A stretch of DNA of 64,000 nt from Microbacterium sp. Lineage in GTDB: Bacteria > Actinomycetota > Actinomycetes > Actinomycetales > Microbacteriaceae. Positions 11,941 to 59,880 of the stretch are shown one piece after another (position 1 is the first letter of the stretch; each line of letters opens with the position of its first letter). Under the pieces are notes generated by a model. The model had not been told where the DNA came from. It saw only the letters and a program-made list of their open reading frames with translations, and did no database searches. Position numbers and translations under genes: made by a program. Where the stretch lies: NCBI GenBank assembly GCA_031177765.1, contig JAPSKH010000003.1:1-64000 (forward strand). The letters are read 5' to 3'.

Positions 11941-12063
11941 GATCTCTCCGTTCTGATGCCTGCCCCGAGGTTAGCCAGGCACAGGGTGGGGAGGCAGGGG
12001 TATTGCCGGAACGGTGGCGGCGTGCTACCCGCCCGCCCGGTCGTGCGTGGTGGGATGGAAAGG

Positions 12064-13473
12064 ATGACCACCTCTTCCGATCTGCCTCCCGACGCCCGTG
12101 CGATCGGCTCCGCCGTGCGGCGCGGCCAGATCTCCGCGGTCGAGGTGACCCGGGCGCACCTGGAGCGCATCGCCGCCGTGAATCCTCACGTGAACGCCCT
12201 GACCGTCGTCTTCGAGGAGCGCGCTCTCGCGCTCGCGGCCCACCTCGACGCAGCGCGTGCCGCCGGGGAGGACCCGGGGCCGCTGGCCGGTGTGCCGATC
12301 TCGGTCAAGGAGAACATCGACCTCACCTGGTCGGCGACGACCAACGGCTGGCGGGGCCTGGCAGACGCCGTCCCGGCCGTCGACGCCGCCATCGTCCGGC
12401 GGATGCGGAAGGCCGGCGCCGTGCCGGTCGGGCGCGGCAACATGCCGGACTTCGGCATGCGGTGGGACACCGACAACGACCTCTTCGGTCGCACGCTCAA
12501 TCCGTGGGATGCCGGCCGCAGCGCCGGGGGATCGAGTGCGGGCGACGCCGTCGCGGTCGCGACGCGCATGAGCGCGATCGGGCTCGGCAACGACTTCGGT
12601 GGCTCGCTGCGGCTCCCGGCGTACGCGGCAGGTGTCTGCGGGCTGCGTCCCTCGCGGGGGCTGGTCCCTCGCGCGGCTGTCCGTGAGAGCGGCGTCGCAC
12701 TGACGCTGCAGAGCTTCTCGGTGAACGGGCCGCTCGCCCGCCGCGTCGACGACCTCGAACTCGCCCTCGACGTCGTGCGGGGGTGGGATGCCGACGACCC
12801 GGTGTCGCTCGAGGCTCCCCGCGTACGGCCCGACGCGCGGCCCCGACGGGTCGGCGTCGTGCGGGATCCGCTGGGCTGGGGCGCCGACGAGCAGGTGCTC
12901 GCCGCAGTCGACCGGGCGGCGGCATCCCTCTCTGGTGCCGGTTGGGAGATCGTCGAGATCGAGCCGCCCCTGCTCGAGGAGGCGGCGGTGCTGTGGCGCC
13001 GCCTGTCGTGCACCGACATGCTGACCTCGCTCGCCCCCGAGGTCCTCGGCGCGCCGCTCGGACGCTCGGCGACCCGGTTCCTCCGGGACAGCACGGCGGC
13101 TGCGCGTCCGTACGAGACCGCGGCCGAGTACGCGCAGGCGTGGGCGCGCTCGGCCGTCGTCGCGGCTCGGTGGCGGCGGCTGCTCCTCGAGGTGCCGCTG
13201 ATCCTCGGACCGGTGTCGACCTCCCGCATGCGCGAGCCCGATCACGACCTGGGCGGAACGGATGCCGCCGACCGGGCCTGGCGCGACCTCCGGCTCACGG
13301 TCGCGGCCAACTTCCTCGGCCTGCCGGCGCTCGCGCTGCCCACCGGGCTCGACGACGGCGGACTGCCCACCGGCGTGCAGGTGATCGGCCCGATGTTCGG
13401 CGAGGACCTGGTCTTCGCCGCGGCGCGGGACATCGAGGCGGCCGTCCCGCCGCTGCCCGCCCCACCGGTGTGA
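12064..13473 (+). CDS. Amidase family protein (amidase signature)
   Basis: ISVKENIDLTWSATTNG, SAGGSSAGDAVAVATRMSAIGLGNDFGGSLRLPA Ser-cisSer-Lys signature; ATG 12055 or 12064. Confidence 0.93.
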   Translation: MTTSSDLPPDARAIGSAVRRGQISAVEVTRAHLERIAAVNPHVNALTVVFEERALALAAHLDAARAAGEDPGPLAGVPISVKENIDLTWSATTNGWRGLADAVPAVDAAIVRRMRKAGAVPVGRGNMPDFGMRWDTDNDLFGRTLNPWDAGRSAGGSSAGDAVAVATRMSAIGLGNDFGGSLRLPAYAAGVCGLRPSRGLVPRAAVRESGVALTLQSFSVNGPLARRVDDLELALDVVRGWDADDPVSLEAPRVRPDARPRRVGVVRDPLGWGADEQVLAAVDRAAASLSGAGWEIVEIEPPLLEEAAVLWRRLSCTDMLTSLAPEVLGAPLGRSATRFLRDSTAAARPYETAAEYAQAWARSAVVAARWRRLLLEVPLILGPVSTSRMREPDHDLGGTDAADRAWRDLRLTVAANFLGLPALALPTGLDDGGLPTGVQVIGPMFGEDLVFAAARDIEAAVPPLPAPPV

Positions 13474-49914: not shown

Positions 49915-50565
49915 TCAAGGGCCCGCAGCAGCGGCATCCGCCGTCGTCGTGTGACGATCGCGCACGGCACCGATGACCGACACGGCGGCGTAAAGGAAAA
50001 GAGCACCGGCCGCGACGGCGACGACGACGGTGCGGTTGGAGCCGTTGAGGAGGGTGTTCACCCACCCGAGCAGCGGCAGGCTGTACCAGAGCTTGCCGCG
50101 GACCTGCACCTCGCGGACGGGCTCGGGGTCGACCGTGTCGTTGTTGTCGCCCTTCGTCACGAACGTGAGCTCGCCGTCGGCGTACGTCTTCGACATCACC
50201 CTGTGGCTGACGACCGCCGCTTCGCCCGATCGGATCTGATACGTGATCACGTCGCCGACGCGGATGTCGTCGACCGGTGTCGGCCGGACGACGACCAGTG
50301 TGCCCGGTGGCAGTCCCGGCTCCATCGACTGGGTCAGCACCGTCATCGCGCTGCCGCCCGTCAGAGCGGGCAGGCCGATCACGGCGACGGCGACACCGAG
50401 CAGCAGCACGAGGAGCGCCGCGCTCAGTGAGACCGCGAGGTAGTGCAGCAGGCTCTGACCCTCTTCGCGGCGGCGGATCTCGGCGCGGATGAGCCGGCGC
50501 GTTCCGGATGCCGCGCTGAGCGTGGGCACGGTGACGGTGGTCGTCATGGGCGTCGTGGTCGTCAT
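49915..50565 (-). CDS. sipW: SipW/archaeal-type signal peptidase I
   Basis: VLTQSMEPGLPPGTLVVVRP, SHRV (Ser/His rather than Ser/Lys), FVTKGDNN. Confidence 0.9.
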   Translation of the reverse strand: MTTTTPMTTTVTVPTLSAASGTRRLIRAEIRRREEGQSLLHYLAVSLSAALLVLLLGVAVAVIGLPALTGGSAMTVLTQSMEPGLPPGTLVVVRPTPVDDIRVGDVITYQIRSGEAAVVSHRVMSKTYADGELTFVTKGDNNDTVDPEPVREVQVRGKLWYSLPLLGWVNTLLNGSNRTVVVAVAAGALFLYAAVSVIGAVRDRHTTTADAAAAGP

Positions 50566-51482
50566 CAGCAGTGGTAGTTCGGGGACAGCTGCAGAAGGTC
50601 CAGGAGTGAGGTCGATCGGATGACGCGGACGGTCGCGCTGGCCGGTGCGGTCGTCGCGCCTCCCGTCGTCTCCTTCGCCTCGATGGCGAGCCGGTAGGTG
50701 CCGTTCGAGCCGATCATGTGGCCGGAGAAGACGATCGACACGTTGGCGTTGGCGCTCGCCACCGTCGCGAACGTCGTGCCGGACGCGCTGTCGTACACGC
50801 GGTAGGACACAGGAGCGGTGTCGGCCCGGTTGGTGGGAGCGGTCCAGGTGAGCCGGACGGTGCTCGCGGACTCGGCTGAGCACGTCGGGGTTCCGGCGGC
50901 AGCCAGGCGGTACACCGACTGCGTCACCGCGGCGGCGGTCGCCGAGGTCGTCCAGCTCGTGCCCACGGCGCCGGTGACGCGGAAGGTCGCGGTGGCGCTC
51001 TGACCCTGCAACGACGCGTTCGACGCTCCCTCGACCTGAGTCGAGACGCACACCGTGACCGAAGCGCCGGCGGCGAGGGAGCGCGCCGCCGCAGGCAGCG
51101 CGGGCGCGGTGTTGGCGAGCGACGTGGTCACCGCGTCGGCCGGCGCCGTCGCACCGCACGCGCCCGTCCACAGCCGCAGCGTGGTCTTCTGCGCGAGCGC
51201 GGCGCTGCCGCCGACCTGATTCGCGAGCGCGTACGACAGGGGCGCGCCGCCGGTGTTGGTGATCGTCAACTGCCCGGAAGCCGCCGTCGACGCGGTGCCG
51301 GAGTAGCGGTAGGTGGTGCTGAGCGCGCCGGTCTGCGCCAGGGTGGTCGCGATGGTGGTGGAGGAAGCGGATGCCGACACCGAAGCGCTCGCGATCCACG
51401 CGGCGGACGCTCCGCCGGCGCCGCCGAGCACCGCGAGGGTGACCAGCGCGGCGACGGGGCCGAGGAGGCGGCGACGGGTCAT
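50565..51482 (-). CDS. Exported protein with FnIII-like C-terminal region, SipW-cluster
   Basis: N-terminal GGAGGASAAWIASASVSAS; CSAESASTVRLTWTAPTNRADTAPVSYRVYD; overlaps sipW start. Confidence 0.8.
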   Translation of the reverse strand: MTRRRLLGPVAALVTLAVLGGAGGASAAWIASASVSASASSTTIATTLAQTGALSTTYRYSGTASTAASGQLTITNTGGAPLSYALANQVGGSAALAQKTTLRLWTGACGATAPADAVTTSLANTAPALPAAARSLAAGASVTVCVSTQVEGASNASLQGQSATATFRVTGAVGTSWTTSATAAAVTQSVYRLAAAGTPTCSAESASTVRLTWTAPTNRADTAPVSYRVYDSASGTTFATVASANANVSIVFSGHMIGSNGTYRLAIEAKETTGGATTAPASATVRVIRSTSLLDLLQLSPNYHC

Positions 51483-52078
51483 GAGCGGACCTGCGTTCCG
51501 GAGACGGTGATCGTGAGGGCGGATGCCGCCGCACCGGCGGCTGCGGCGGGCGCGGTCTGGGGCATCCCGATCCCGATGCAGAGGATGGTGGAGGCACCCG
51601 GGGCCAGCGTCAGCTGCAGGTCGGAACCGGCCGCGGCCCCCACGGGGGTGGTCACGGTCGGGGTGACGCGACCGGCGGTGCAATCGGCGCTCGAGACGGT
51701 CTTTCCGACCGACACCACGAGGGACGCGGTGAACGTGGTCGGCGTCGCGGGCCCCTTGACCGGATCGAGCGTGAGGGCGAGGGGCGCGGTGCCGGAGTTG
51801 GTCACGGTGGTGGACGCGTAGAGGGTGCGACCCGGATAGAGACCGGCGGCAGACAGGTTCAGGGCGCCGGCGGTGAGTCCGGCGGACCCGGCCCTGAGGG
51901 TCGTGGTGGCGGCGGCCGCGGGGGCGGCGACGGTCCAGACGGCGAAGGTCCCGCCGCCGGCCAGTACGCCCAGGACGATCGCGCCCGCCGTCCCGAGGGC
52001 ACCGAGGAGCAGACGCGCCGGCGCCGCGGCGCGACGCTGTGCGCGTCGGGCGGCGTGGCGACGGATGCGGCGGCTCAT
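51479..52078 (-). CDS. Exported SipW-cluster protein
   Basis: Signal region LGVLAGGGTFAVWTVAAPAAAATTT; TNSGTAPLALTL; ATGA overlap. Confidence 0.78.
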   Translation of the reverse strand: MSRRIRRHAARRAQRRAAAPARLLLGALGTAGAIVLGVLAGGGTFAVWTVAAPAAAATTTLRAGSAGLTAGALNLSAAGLYPGRTLYASTTVTNSGTAPLALTLDPVKGPATPTTFTASLVVSVGKTVSSADCTAGRVTPTVTTPVGAAAGSDLQLTLAPGASTILCIGIGMPQTAPAAAAGAAASALTITVSGTQVRS

Positions 52079-52142
52079 TCTCGGTCCTCGTCGGGAATCG
52101 GACGGTGCGGGGCTCGCCTGCGGCGAGGCGAGCCCCGTTCGG

Positions 52143-52715
52143 TCACTTCGTGTTCTGCGTGAGGCTGACGGTCAGCGCGTCGAGCGTGACGGCGCCGTTC
52201 ATGGCGTTGTTGTTGCCGCCCGCGGTGTCGCCGTAGGGGAAGGTGATCGTCACGGTGACGGTGACGTTCTGGTTCACCACGCCGGCGCCCGGCGTGACGG
52301 TGAAGGTGGGCCCTGTGCCGGTGATGCCCGAGCCGGACGCGGTCAGCACGGCGGAGTCGGTCAGGTAGCTCGCCAGCGCCACGTCGGCGGGCTTGGTGTT
52401 GTCGGCCGGAGCGATCGACGAATCGGTCAGTGACAGCGTCGCGCTGAGGCTGTCGCCCTCGGCACCGACCTTCATCGTCTTCGTGTACGTGAGGACATCG
52501 CCGGGGGCGACGCGGTAGTCGCCGATCGTGATCGCCGTGCCGTTGGCCGTCCATGCGCCCGGGGTGTCCGAATCCTCGACGACCAGGTTGCCGGCGACGA
52601 TCGAGCCGCCCGCGACGGAGGCCGAGGAGTTCCAGGTGGCGAACGTGCCGGCGCCGCCGAGCAGCAGGATGACGCCGGCGGTGGTGGCGATGGACGCCTT
52701 GACGATCTTCTTCAT
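52143..52715 (-). CDS. Alternate-type signal-peptide exported protein (SipW substrate, TasA/camelysin-like)
   Basis: MKKIVKASIATTAGVILLLGGAGTFATWNSSASVAGGSIVAGNLVV. Confidence 0.88.
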   Translation of the reverse strand: MKKIVKASIATTAGVILLLGGAGTFATWNSSASVAGGSIVAGNLVVEDSDTPGAWTANGTAITIGDYRVAPGDVLTYTKTMKVGAEGDSLSATLSLTDSSIAPADNTKPADVALASYLTDSAVLTASGSGITGTGPTFTVTPGAGVVNQNVTVTVTITFPYGDTAGGNNNAMNGAVTLDALTVSLTQNTK

Positions 52716-53270
52716 GGTGATGTCCTTCCGCGGTTTGCAGCCCGCTTCAGTAGGGGAGTGTCGGGGTGCCGCGGAGAGGCGAGCCGGTGCGGACCGCTGC
52801 TCCTCGAACACGTCCCTCAGTCTCGGGCGCTCGCCGCAAGGCGCTGCCGAGTCGTCGGCAGGGCTTCCGCAAGATCGCGACAAGATCCGGGGATGCCTCA
52901 GCGTGATCGGCGGCGAACCGCAAGAACAGCGCAAGACCGGGGCGCCGCGAGGCGTCGCGGCTGTCGTGTGCCGCTGCCTTGGCCGGTATCGGACCCGCGC
53001 GTAAGGGGTCGCGATCGTCGCCTATGAGATGCTCGCGGAATGGGCGTGGAATCGCCGGCGCCCGTGGCTGATGGCGAGCGCCGATCCGTGGGGATCACGG
53101 CGACGGGTTCGCGTCGGAAGCTCGGGTCTGCGAAGGACGACGAGATGGCCTGAAGGGGGATGCCGACCTCGTGGCATCCGCGGCCGCCGACAGCGCGGCA
53201 GGTCTCGCGGCGGGCGATGGCCGACCTCGGTGTCGGCCGCCCGGCATCCGGTGCGGCGGGCTGAAGCGTC

Positions 53271-57223: not shown

Positions 57224-58411
57224 CTACGCGGCGGCTTCGCGCTCCTCCATGTGCGCGTCGAGCGCCCGCCCCATGCGCAGGACGGCTTCCCGCAGCAGCG
57301 GGCGAGGGAGAGCGAACACGAAGCGGGTGTGACCGATCGCGGCCTCTCCGCACGCGGCGCCGTCGGTCATCGCGACGCCGGCGTTCTCGCGGAACCACTC
57401 GCCCAGATCGCCTTCCAATCCGTAGTCGCGGAAGTCGATGAGTGCGATGTAGGTGCCCTCCGGAAGGGTCATGCGGGCGCGCGGCAGGTGCTCCGCGACC
57501 AGGTCGGCCAGCAGACGACGGTTGCCGTCGAGGTAGTCCACGACGTTGTCGAGCCACTGGGCGCCGGCGGAGTACGCCGCCGTGTTCGCCAGGACGCCGA
57601 GCGTCGAGGTGCCGTGTCCGGCCCACATGCCGAAGGATTCCCAGGCCTCGGCGTCGGCGTCGTTCGACAGGATCACCTGCGCACACTTCAGGCCCGCGAG
57701 GTTCCACGCCTTGGAGGCGGATGCCGCGGTGATGGTGTGAGACGCCGCCTGTTCCGACACGGATGCGTAGGGGATGTGCTGTGCGGGTCGATAGACGATC
57801 GGCGCGTGGATCTCGTCGGAGAACACGCGCCCTCCCTTCGCGGCGACGACATCGGCGAGGGCGAGGAGCTCGTCGCGGCGGAACACGGTGCCGAGCGGAT
57901 TGTGCGGGTTGCACAGGACGACCATCCCGGCGCCCTCGTCGAAGGCGCGGGCGATCGCCTCGAGGTTCATCGTCATGCGTCCGTCGACCTCGATGCTCGG
58001 CACCTCGATCACCTCGCGCCCGTGCAGCTGGGGGACGAAAAGGAACGGCATGTACGCCGGCGTGGGAACGATCACGGCGCTGCCCGGCGCGGTGAACTTC
58101 TCGAGCGCGAGCTCGAAGGCGGCGATGACGTCGGGAACGTGGTGCACCCGCTCCGCAGGCACCGCCCATCCGTAGCTGTCGGTGTACCAGGAGGCGGTCG
58201 CCTCCGACATGTCACGAGCGACCTGCTGAGGCAGATATCCGGTCAGTCCGCGGTCGAGCGTGTCCTTGAGCGCCTCGCTCACGGCGGGGGCCAGTCCGAA
58301 GTCCATCTCGGCGACCCAGGCGCCGATCGTGTCGGGGAACGTCGTCCACTTGACGCTTCCGGCGTCCCTGAGATCGGCGGCGGAGATGGCGTCGAAGTCC
58401 TGCTGCAGCAC
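57224..58411 (-). CDS. MalY/PatB-type PLP-dependent C-S lyase/aminotransferase
   Basis: KWTTFPDTIGAWVAEMDFGLAP, SDEIHAPIVYRPAQHIPYASVSEQAASHTITAASASKAWNLAGLKCAQ. Confidence 0.95.
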   Translation of the reverse strand: MLQQDFDAISAADLRDAGSVKWTTFPDTIGAWVAEMDFGLAPAVSEALKDTLDRGLTGYLPQQVARDMSEATASWYTDSYGWAVPAERVHHVPDVIAAFELALEKFTAPGSAVIVPTPAYMPFLFVPQLHGREVIEVPSIEVDGRMTMNLEAIARAFDEGAGMVVLCNPHNPLGTVFRRDELLALADVVAAKGGRVFSDEIHAPIVYRPAQHIPYASVSEQAASHTITAASASKAWNLAGLKCAQVILSNDADAEAWESFGMWAGHGTSTLGVLANTAAYSAGAQWLDNVVDYLDGNRRLLADLVAEHLPRARMTLPEGTYIALIDFRDYGLEGDLGEWFRENAGVAMTDGAACGEAAIGHTRFVFALPRPLLREAVLRMGRALDAHMEEREAAA

Positions 58412-58617
58412 GGGTTTTCCTTCCGTCGGAGGCGCGTCGGCATTGGAGGCAACGGCGGCCGACCCCGCCGCCATTCCCACGCCGACGCGTAGGGTCCTGA
58501 CACTACCGACGGCTCCCGACGCCGCATGCACGTCCGGTGGGCGACACGGCGCCGAGCCCGTGCGCCCGACGGAGCACGGCTTGGCGGCTGCGTGCGGGCG
58601 TGCATTACTCTGGTGCC

Positions 58618-58757
58618 GTGCTCACGCAGCGGCGATTTCGGAACCCCCGGCCGGGTTATGGCCGCGGGGTCGACGCGCGCTCGTAGCACGAGGTCTCCGC
58701 AGGTACGGCCGGGGGAAGTTCTCATCCTTCGCGAATTTGCCATCGACCTGGAGACCT
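58618..58757 (+). promoter_or_regulatory. Structured leader of the PheRS-like gene with small upstream ORF
   Basis: Small ORF MLTQRRFRNPRPGYGRGVDARS-stop (58618-58686); 8-bp inverted repeat AGGTCTCC (58691-58698)/GGAGACCT (58750-58757) covering the SD GGAG. Confidence 0.5.
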
Positions 58758-58761
58758 TCTC

Positions 58762-59880
58762 ATGTCGCATGCCGACTATCTGACTGTTGACCAACTCTGC
58801 CGTGCGCTGAAGCTGCGTGACCTCACCGATCCTGCTCAGGGTGCGCACGCCATTCAGGCCCTTCTCGATTCCGCCGTGCACGCGCTGCGGTCCGAATGGG
58901 GTAGCACCGTCCGCTCTGTGCGCAACGCTCCGCTCGTGCCGGTGCGCGAGAACTATGATCGGCTCGGCTACGACCCCGGTGATGTCACCCGTGCCCGTCG
59001 ATATACCCGCTACATCAGCCCGACGGTGATGCTTCGCAGCCACACGAGCGCCGACCTTCCGCGTGCCCTCGAGGACTACGCGGGACGGAACGAAGTCGAT
59101 GAGCTGATCGTGGCCCCCGGGCTCGTCTATCGGCGCGACGCCGTCGATCGCACCCACGTGGGGGAGCCGCACCAGGTAGATCTCTGGCGCATTCGCAGCA
59201 CTCCGGATACCAGCGACGACGACATGGTCACGATGATCGGCTGCCTGGTCGACGCGCTGCTTCCGGGCGCGCAGTGGAGGACGACCGATGTCACGCACCC
59301 CTACACGGTGCGCGGACGGCAGATCGACGTGCTCCACGCTGGCGAATGGCTCGAGCTCGCCGAGTGCGGGCGCATTCATCCTGATGTGCTGCGCGGGTCC
59401 GGCCTCGACCCCGAGCGGTGGTCCGGCCTCGCGCTCGGGATGGGATTGGAGCGCGCTCTGATGCTGCGCAAAGGCATCCCCGACATCCGATATCTACGGG
59501 CGAAGGACCCCCGCGCCGCCGCGCAGATGCTCACCCTGCAGCCGTGGCAACACGTATCGCCTCTGCCTGCAGCTCGGCGCGACATTTCGGTCGTCGTGGC
59601 GGCAGAAGAGGACGAGGAGACTCTCGGGGACCGCGTCCGCAACGCACTCGGCGACGATGCCGATGTCATCGAGCGCGTCGAAGTGCTCAGCTGCACCGCG
59701 CACGAGGAACTGCCCGAGGCGGCGCGCTCCCGGCTCGGCACACAACACGGTCAGGTCAACATCCTGTTGCGGATCGTGCTGCGCCCCATCGACCGCACAC
59801 TCACCTCGCACGAAGCGAACGCTATCCGCAACTCGATCTATCGAGCCGTGCACCAAGGACCGGTGCTGGAACTGATCTGA
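58762..59880 (+). CDS. Monomeric phenylalanyl-tRNA synthetase-like protein: PheS catalytic core fused to C-terminal FDX-ACB (PheT B8-like) domain
   Basis: LRSHTSADLPRAL, APGLVYRRDAVDRTHVGEPHQVD (motif 2), SGLALGMGLERALMLRKGIPDIRYL (motif 3), ARRDISVVVAAEED...RIVLRPIDRTLTSHEANAIRNSIYRAV (FDX-ACB). Confidence 0.92.
   Translation: MSHADYLTVDQLCRALKLRDLTDPAQGAHAIQALLDSAVHALRSEWGSTVRSVRNAPLVPVRENYDRLGYDPGDVTRARRYTRYISPTVMLRSHTSADLPRALEDYAGRNEVDELIVAPGLVYRRDAVDRTHVGEPHQVDLWRIRSTPDTSDDDMVTMIGCLVDALLPGAQWRTTDVTHPYTVRGRQIDVLHAGEWLELAECGRIHPDVLRGSGLDPERWSGLALGMGLERALMLRKGIPDIRYLRAKDPRAAAQMLTLQPWQHVSPLPAARRDISVVVAAEEDEETLGDRVRNALGDDADVIERVEVLSCTAHEELPEAARSRLGTQHGQVNILLRIVLRPIDRTLTSHEANAIRNSIYRAVHQGPVLELI

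Follow-up and report, generated by a model that had tools for sequence, protein, structure and literature searches.

The stretch of DNA analysed here, 64,000 nucleotides of a Microbacterium sp. (assembly GCA_031177765.1, contig JAPSKH010000003.1, positions 1–64,000; hereafter the window), carries on its forward strand srmL, an open reading frame (ORF) that starts with ATG, runs from 58762 to 59880, and encodes a 372-residue single-chain protein resembling phenylalanyl-tRNA synthetase (PheRS). Phenylalanine is absent from this protein (0 of 372 residues), and a conserved leader (58606–58761) lies directly upstream of the gene. Both features were missed in a preliminary description of the ORF, which had recognised a PheS-type core joined to an FDX-ACB domain and a likeness to the monomeric PheRS of mitochondria.

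SrmL is a full-length member of the NCBIfam family NF051887, 'PheS-related mystery ligase SrmL' (529.4 bits against a cut-off of 300, profile positions 1–349 of 349). The class II PheS core is matched by PF01409 at 110.6 bits, and the FDX-ACB domain, weak by sequence (27.2 bits, slightly below the Pfam cut-off of 31.1), is present in the structural model, so that the architecture first proposed is upheld. This AlphaFold model was built from 54 family members and has a mean predicted local distance difference test (pLDDT) score of 93.4. Its best structural match is human mitochondrial PheRS (3cmq), aligned over the full length with FDX-ACB included (TMq 0.74, 376 columns), which confirms the suspected likeness to the mitochondrial enzyme. 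Three synthetase profiles score below their cut-offs on SrmL: mitochondrial PheRS (TIGR00469) reaches 115.1 bits against 258, bacterial PheS (TIGR00468) 94.3 against 237, and PylRS (TIGR02367) 18.2 against 178. In a tree limited to SrmL and bacterial PheS, the SrmL sequences come out as a single group with a long stem (2.1) and low support (0.31). A Foldseek search against viral proteins returned only distant synthetases, PADLOC gave no match, and a literature search found no paper using the name SrmL, the family having been named without a function.

The canonical genes of the same genome lie on another contig (C21), pheS at 68749–69477 and pheT at 69492–72017, in an assembly that is 73% complete. 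The window itself holds neither pheT nor a usual pheS, as first reported, and the search elsewhere in the genome that had been proposed found both; SrmL is therefore an extra enzyme.

Absence of phenylalanine is a property of the family. Across 87 relatives, phenylalanine accounts for 55 of 30,686 core residues (0.18%) versus 6.3% in PheS cores, and 60 of the 87 have no core phenylalanine at all; the other 19 residues all stay within 0.67- to 1.62-fold of their frequency in PheS cores. The PheS of the same host contains 21 phenylalanines, and phenylalanine is present in every one of 350 flanking ORFs that are 300 residues or longer. Fourteen columns that are mostly phenylalanine in PheS, six of them invariant phenylalanine in the sampled PheS, are replaced in SrmL, mainly by Tyr, Leu, His, Pro, Arg, Asp, or Val. 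Those in the pocket turn F-P-F into H179-P-Y181 and GFAFG into GL223A224L225G, and hence the 'altered pocket' of SrmL appears, from the alignment, to be largely a consequence of phenylalanine removal. Removal does not explain two further changes near the amino-group site, both invariant: D140, which stands for the glutamate of the PheS HQxE motif, and E201, which stands for a glycine. They leave another substrate with a small probability. The residues R124, Q138, T182, A224, G228, and R231, which correspond to listed phenylalanine contacts of Mycobacterium tuberculosis PheRS (PMC12447630), are invariant; the core residues R124, Q138, and R231 are present in all 87 relatives.

The by-eye substitutions of the preliminary description were right wherever they were tested (FPF, GFAFG, and the HQxE glutamate), and had been taken to suggest that the enzyme may activate a different amino acid, aminoacylate a non-tRNA target, or serve as a self-resistance PheRS. 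That SrmL activates an amino acid other than phenylalanine, or transfers one to a non-tRNA acceptor, now seems improbable. Such a role would suit the invariant H179, Y181, D140, and E201, at positions where PheS has invariant F, F, E, and G, as well as the FDX-ACB match under the Pfam cut-off and the NCBI name of mystery ligase. The F changes are, however, accounted for by phenylalanine removal, and HPY does not imply another substrate since human cytosolic PheRS, which charges phenylalanine, also lacks FPF and has Asn410 and Tyr412 instead (PMC12447630); FARS2, the mitochondrial enzyme, retains FPF. An invariant phenylalanine codon in the leader, tRNA-Phe genes beside two phage copies, and the lack of a conserved biosynthetic neighbour (all described below) likewise speak against it, and neither a different amino acid nor a non-tRNA target finds support. 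It was the absence of phenylalanine from SrmL that displaced a different amino acid as the leading interpretation.

The leader opens with a −10 box, TACTCT (58606–58611, forward strand, as are all the elements below), at about the point where DNA conservation across genera begins. Six nucleotides later a GTG starts a leaderless leader-peptide ORF of 22 codons (58618–58686), MLTQRRFRNPRPGYGRGVDARS, which ends in TAG and was found in 78 of 83 loci tested; in 70 of 78 loci, a TAnnnT motif ends 6–7 nucleotides before its start codon. Of the insertions and deletions inside this ORF, 55 of 58 are multiples of three, versus 29 of 180 past its stop. An invariant [A/G]TG at the start position and an invariant GCGATTT had already emerged when 29 upstream regions were aligned without any requirement for the phenylalanine codon, at a stage when the leader ORF had yet to be noticed.

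Codon 7 of the leader (58636–58638), preceded by CGA, is TTT, the putative sensor codon. Among 78 loci this phenylalanine codon, usually at position 7, is TTT in 76 and TTC in two, and thus it is the residue, not the triplet, that is conserved; the phenylalanine codons within srmL ORFs themselves are TTC in 43 cases and TTT in one. Leader and srmL together contain no phenylalanine codon other than the sensor codon in 36 of 75 loci.

Downstream of the sensor codon lie five segments with the capacity to form alternative helices. Segment A (ACCCCCGGCCGG, 58643–58654) encodes P-R-P of the leader peptide and pairs with either segment B (GGCCGCGGGG, 58660–58669), also within the leader ORF, or segment D (CGGCCGGGGG, 58706–58715). 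Segment C (GGTCTCC, 58692–58698) is an anti-Shine–Dalgarno element complementary to segment E (GGAGACC, 58750–58756), which holds the srmL Shine–Dalgarno GGAG and, in the fold predicted for the free RNA, is masked by C. The two helices of A are mutually exclusive and both covary: A:B is paired in 91% of cells with 15 double-change cells, and A:D in 96% with 23, values reached in none of 500 shuffles in either case. Comparison of duplex energies within and across clades favours each clade's own pairing for A:D (p = 1e-7) and C:E (p = 0.0017), and own pairing is also better for A:B. Since C is the complement of E, A:B together with C:E hides the Shine–Dalgarno site, and A:D together with B:C would free it. 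A search of Rfam with the leader gave no match.

These features suggest how srmL may be switched on. The mRNA would start with the leaderless ORF, whose sole invariant codon outside the paired segments specifies phenylalanine. When Phe-tRNA is plentiful, the ribosome would pass through the leader, C would pair with E, and the srmL ribosome-binding site would be hidden. When Phe-tRNA is scarce, for example through inhibition of PheST, the ribosome would stall at the phenylalanine codon and cover A, leaving B free to hold C and the site open. Such a direction is suggested by co-transcriptional folding, in which a ribosome at the phenylalanine codon, with E not yet made, allows B:C to form, and B:C is largely lost once the ribosome is at least five codons beyond it. 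As SrmL contains no phenylalanine, it can be made despite the missing Phe-tRNA.

SrmL is thus most probably an auxiliary, compact, single-chain PheRS that backs up PheST during a shortage of charged tRNA-Phe, is induced via its phenylalanine-codon leader, and can itself be made without Phe-tRNA. The observations behind this reading are the sequence, the leader ORF, the covariation of A:B, A:D, and C:E, the depletion of phenylalanine, the predicted fold, and the phage context; from these, charging of tRNA-Phe by SrmL, the way in which the switch turns, and the nature of the trigger are inferred. Several points weigh against it. Some relatives retain one to six phenylalanines, and D140 and E201 do not follow from phenylalanine removal. 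B and C are complementary yet lack clade-specific covariation (p = 0.76; controls likewise show none), and equilibrium folding with a ribosome placed at each codon in turn gives the stall at the phenylalanine codon no influence on Shine–Dalgarno accessibility (0.30 stalled versus 0.30 free); the switch logic therefore depends on the co-transcriptional view. Furthermore, no PheRS inhibitor or producer has been linked to srmL.

The gene is rare but widely scattered. Of 397 genomes from across the phylum, 2 have a member of NF051887 above the cut-off, as do 3 of 150 from the taxonomic family, and copies 75%–85% identical are found in Microbacterium, Nocardia, Nesterenkonia, Labedella, Sanguibacter, Actinoplanes, and other genera. 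DNA similarity across genera (about 25 loci, many genera) spans from about 58596–58632 to about 59881, close to the srmL stop codon; judged by sequence, the mobile unit is the leader and gene only. Beyond close synteny in Arthrobacter, no neighbouring gene of srmL is conserved, and hence no partner or pathway can be assigned to it. The ORF divergent from srmL in the window (57224–58531, reverse strand) looks by eye like a pyridoxal-phosphate aminotransferase and is not conserved beside srmL elsewhere. A plasmid of the gamma-proteobacterium Azotobacter chroococcum encodes a relative (11992–13104) with 52% identity and one phenylalanine, for which no leader peptide could be recognised. Broken or frameshifted copies of srmL were seen in Zimmermannella, Nesterenkonia, Microbacterium, and a phylum-level relative (L076, L085, L116, L005).

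On a Glutamicibacter plasmid, srmL lies beside cmx and near tet(33), and on the Corynebacterium diphtheriae plasmid FRC0402_p2, a truncated, unannotated copy (query residues 154–372) lies between erm(X) and tet(65). This co-location on two plasmids, one copy being truncated, hints at a possible role of srmL in inhibitor resistance. It would also fit a leader that senses a ribosome-targeting antibiotic rather than a shortage of Phe-tRNA, with SrmL induced by translational attenuation of the erm or cat type, in which the Shine–Dalgarno is likewise hidden by the leader. Such a leader is unlikely, however, as the sole invariant unpaired codon specifies phenylalanine and precedes a PheRS-like gene that avoids phenylalanine, whereas a drug-stalling peptide needs no such codon; the TTC of two leaders, which keeps the residue rather than the triplet, argues in the same direction. 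Of the three options in the preliminary description, a resistance-type PheRS is the one favoured; as srmL has no biosynthetic cluster attached to it, self-resistance proper is not established. A literature search on PheRS self-resistance found nothing direct.

Huge phages also carry srmL. Of five phage contigs with the gene, four carry a terminase. A single clear PheS-type gene is present on each of the five, and apart from the FDX-ACB of SrmL itself, none of them yielded a pheT. On two huge phage contigs, tRNA-Phe(GAA) genes adjoin srmL within a tRNA array; in a third huge phage, srmL lies among the genes for Lys, Trp, Ser, His, Gly, Ala, and Tyr synthetases, with tRNA-Phe genes in the region. 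Going by gene order, srmL takes the position in which the phage's own PheRS would be expected. Together with the mobility of srmL, the phage copies lend some weight to a variant of the back-up role in which SrmL is a PheRS but no natural PheRS inhibitor comes into play: its benefit would lie in protecting against phenylalanine analogues, or against a rival or a phage that causes the charging of tRNA-Phe to be lost. Phenylalanine avoidance suits any cause of Phe-tRNA shortage. This variant overlaps the back-up reading proposed above and differs only in the trigger, which the data do not separate from inhibition of PheST; it is a possibility, though clearly the less probable form.

Depletion of the cognate residue extends to other phage synthetases. 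In a 508 kb phage (IMGVR_UViG_3300049793_000366; L132), 17 synthetases could be named, and in 16 of these the cognate residue is the most depleted of the twenty, with the other synthetases of the same phage as the baseline. IleRS contains no isoleucine in 742 residues where 61 are expected. Its own residue is likewise absent from ValRS (32 expected), AspRS (30), ThrRS (21), TyrRS (17), ProRS (14), and AlaRS (10), as well as from HisRS, TrpRS, and SrmL, and occurs once in LysRS (33 expected), AsnRS (22), and GlyRS (16). In three other huge phages (L133, L134, L136), consistent depletion is confined to SrmL, HisRS, ValRS, and TrpRS; SerRS and CysRS show no shortage of their own residue, and neither, for the most part, does AspRS. 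SrmL is likely to belong to a larger and so far undescribed class of 'cognate-free' synthetases, which are stripped of the very residue they charge and could hence be made from zero charged tRNA. Such a class would be represented by a near-complete set in the 508 kb phage, by a part of the set (Phe, His, Val, and Trp) in other huge phages, and in actinobacteria by the Phe member under a phenylalanine-sensing leader. A literature search on cognate-depleted synthetases found nothing direct; synthetases of huge phages have been reported, and the passages found in that report make no mention of cognate depletion (PMC7162821).

Elsewhere in the window, a signal peptidase I-like ORF lies next to ORFs for proteins with TasA- or camelysin-like starts, as judged by eye (49915–52934, reverse strand).

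Read as a back-up PheRS, SrmL gives a named mystery family a testable function, and with it a putative design principle: a rescue enzyme avoids the residue whose supply it restores and is controlled by the codon for that residue. Sources of Phe-tRNA stress, possibly natural PheRS inhibitors, are predicted to be common enough in actinobacteria to have spread srmL across many genera, and, to judge from the phage set, some huge phages may be able to resume the charging of most amino acids unaided. A single-chain synthetase free of phenylalanine could also serve cell-free translation.

Among known systems, mitochondrial monomeric PheRS (FARS2) shares with SrmL a single chain composed of a PheS core and FDX-ACB; unlike SrmL, it is a housekeeping enzyme that keeps FPF, and the two are about 24% identical. 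The name of the NF051887 family, to which this SrmL belongs in full length, tells of neither the absence of phenylalanine nor the leader. Comparable in role are the auxiliary inhibitor-resistant synthetases TrpRS1 (indolmycin), IleRS2 (mupirocin), and SerRS2 (albomycin), which are likewise second, divergent enzymes beside the housekeeping one; they are about 30% identical to it, made on demand, and sometimes plasmid-borne (PMC9437257). The review of these enzymes mentions no PheRS example, and avoidance of the cognate residue, as in SrmL, is not seen there. Attenuators that resemble the srmL leader precede trpS and leuS in Streptomyces and pheST in gamma-proteobacteria, and combine a leader peptide that has the cognate codon with alternative RNA helices; leuS attenuators, however, have terminators, whereas the srmL leader appears to act on the ribosome-binding site (PMC1262725). 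In the same survey, which dealt with actinobacterial RNA regulators, the phenylalanine operons of Actinobacteria yielded no conserved regulatory RNA structure. Finally, PMC4209129 addresses a bias by which enzymes required when an amino acid is lacking contain less of that amino acid; compared with this bias in biosynthetic enzymes, removal in SrmL is near-complete, and it occurs in a synthetase.
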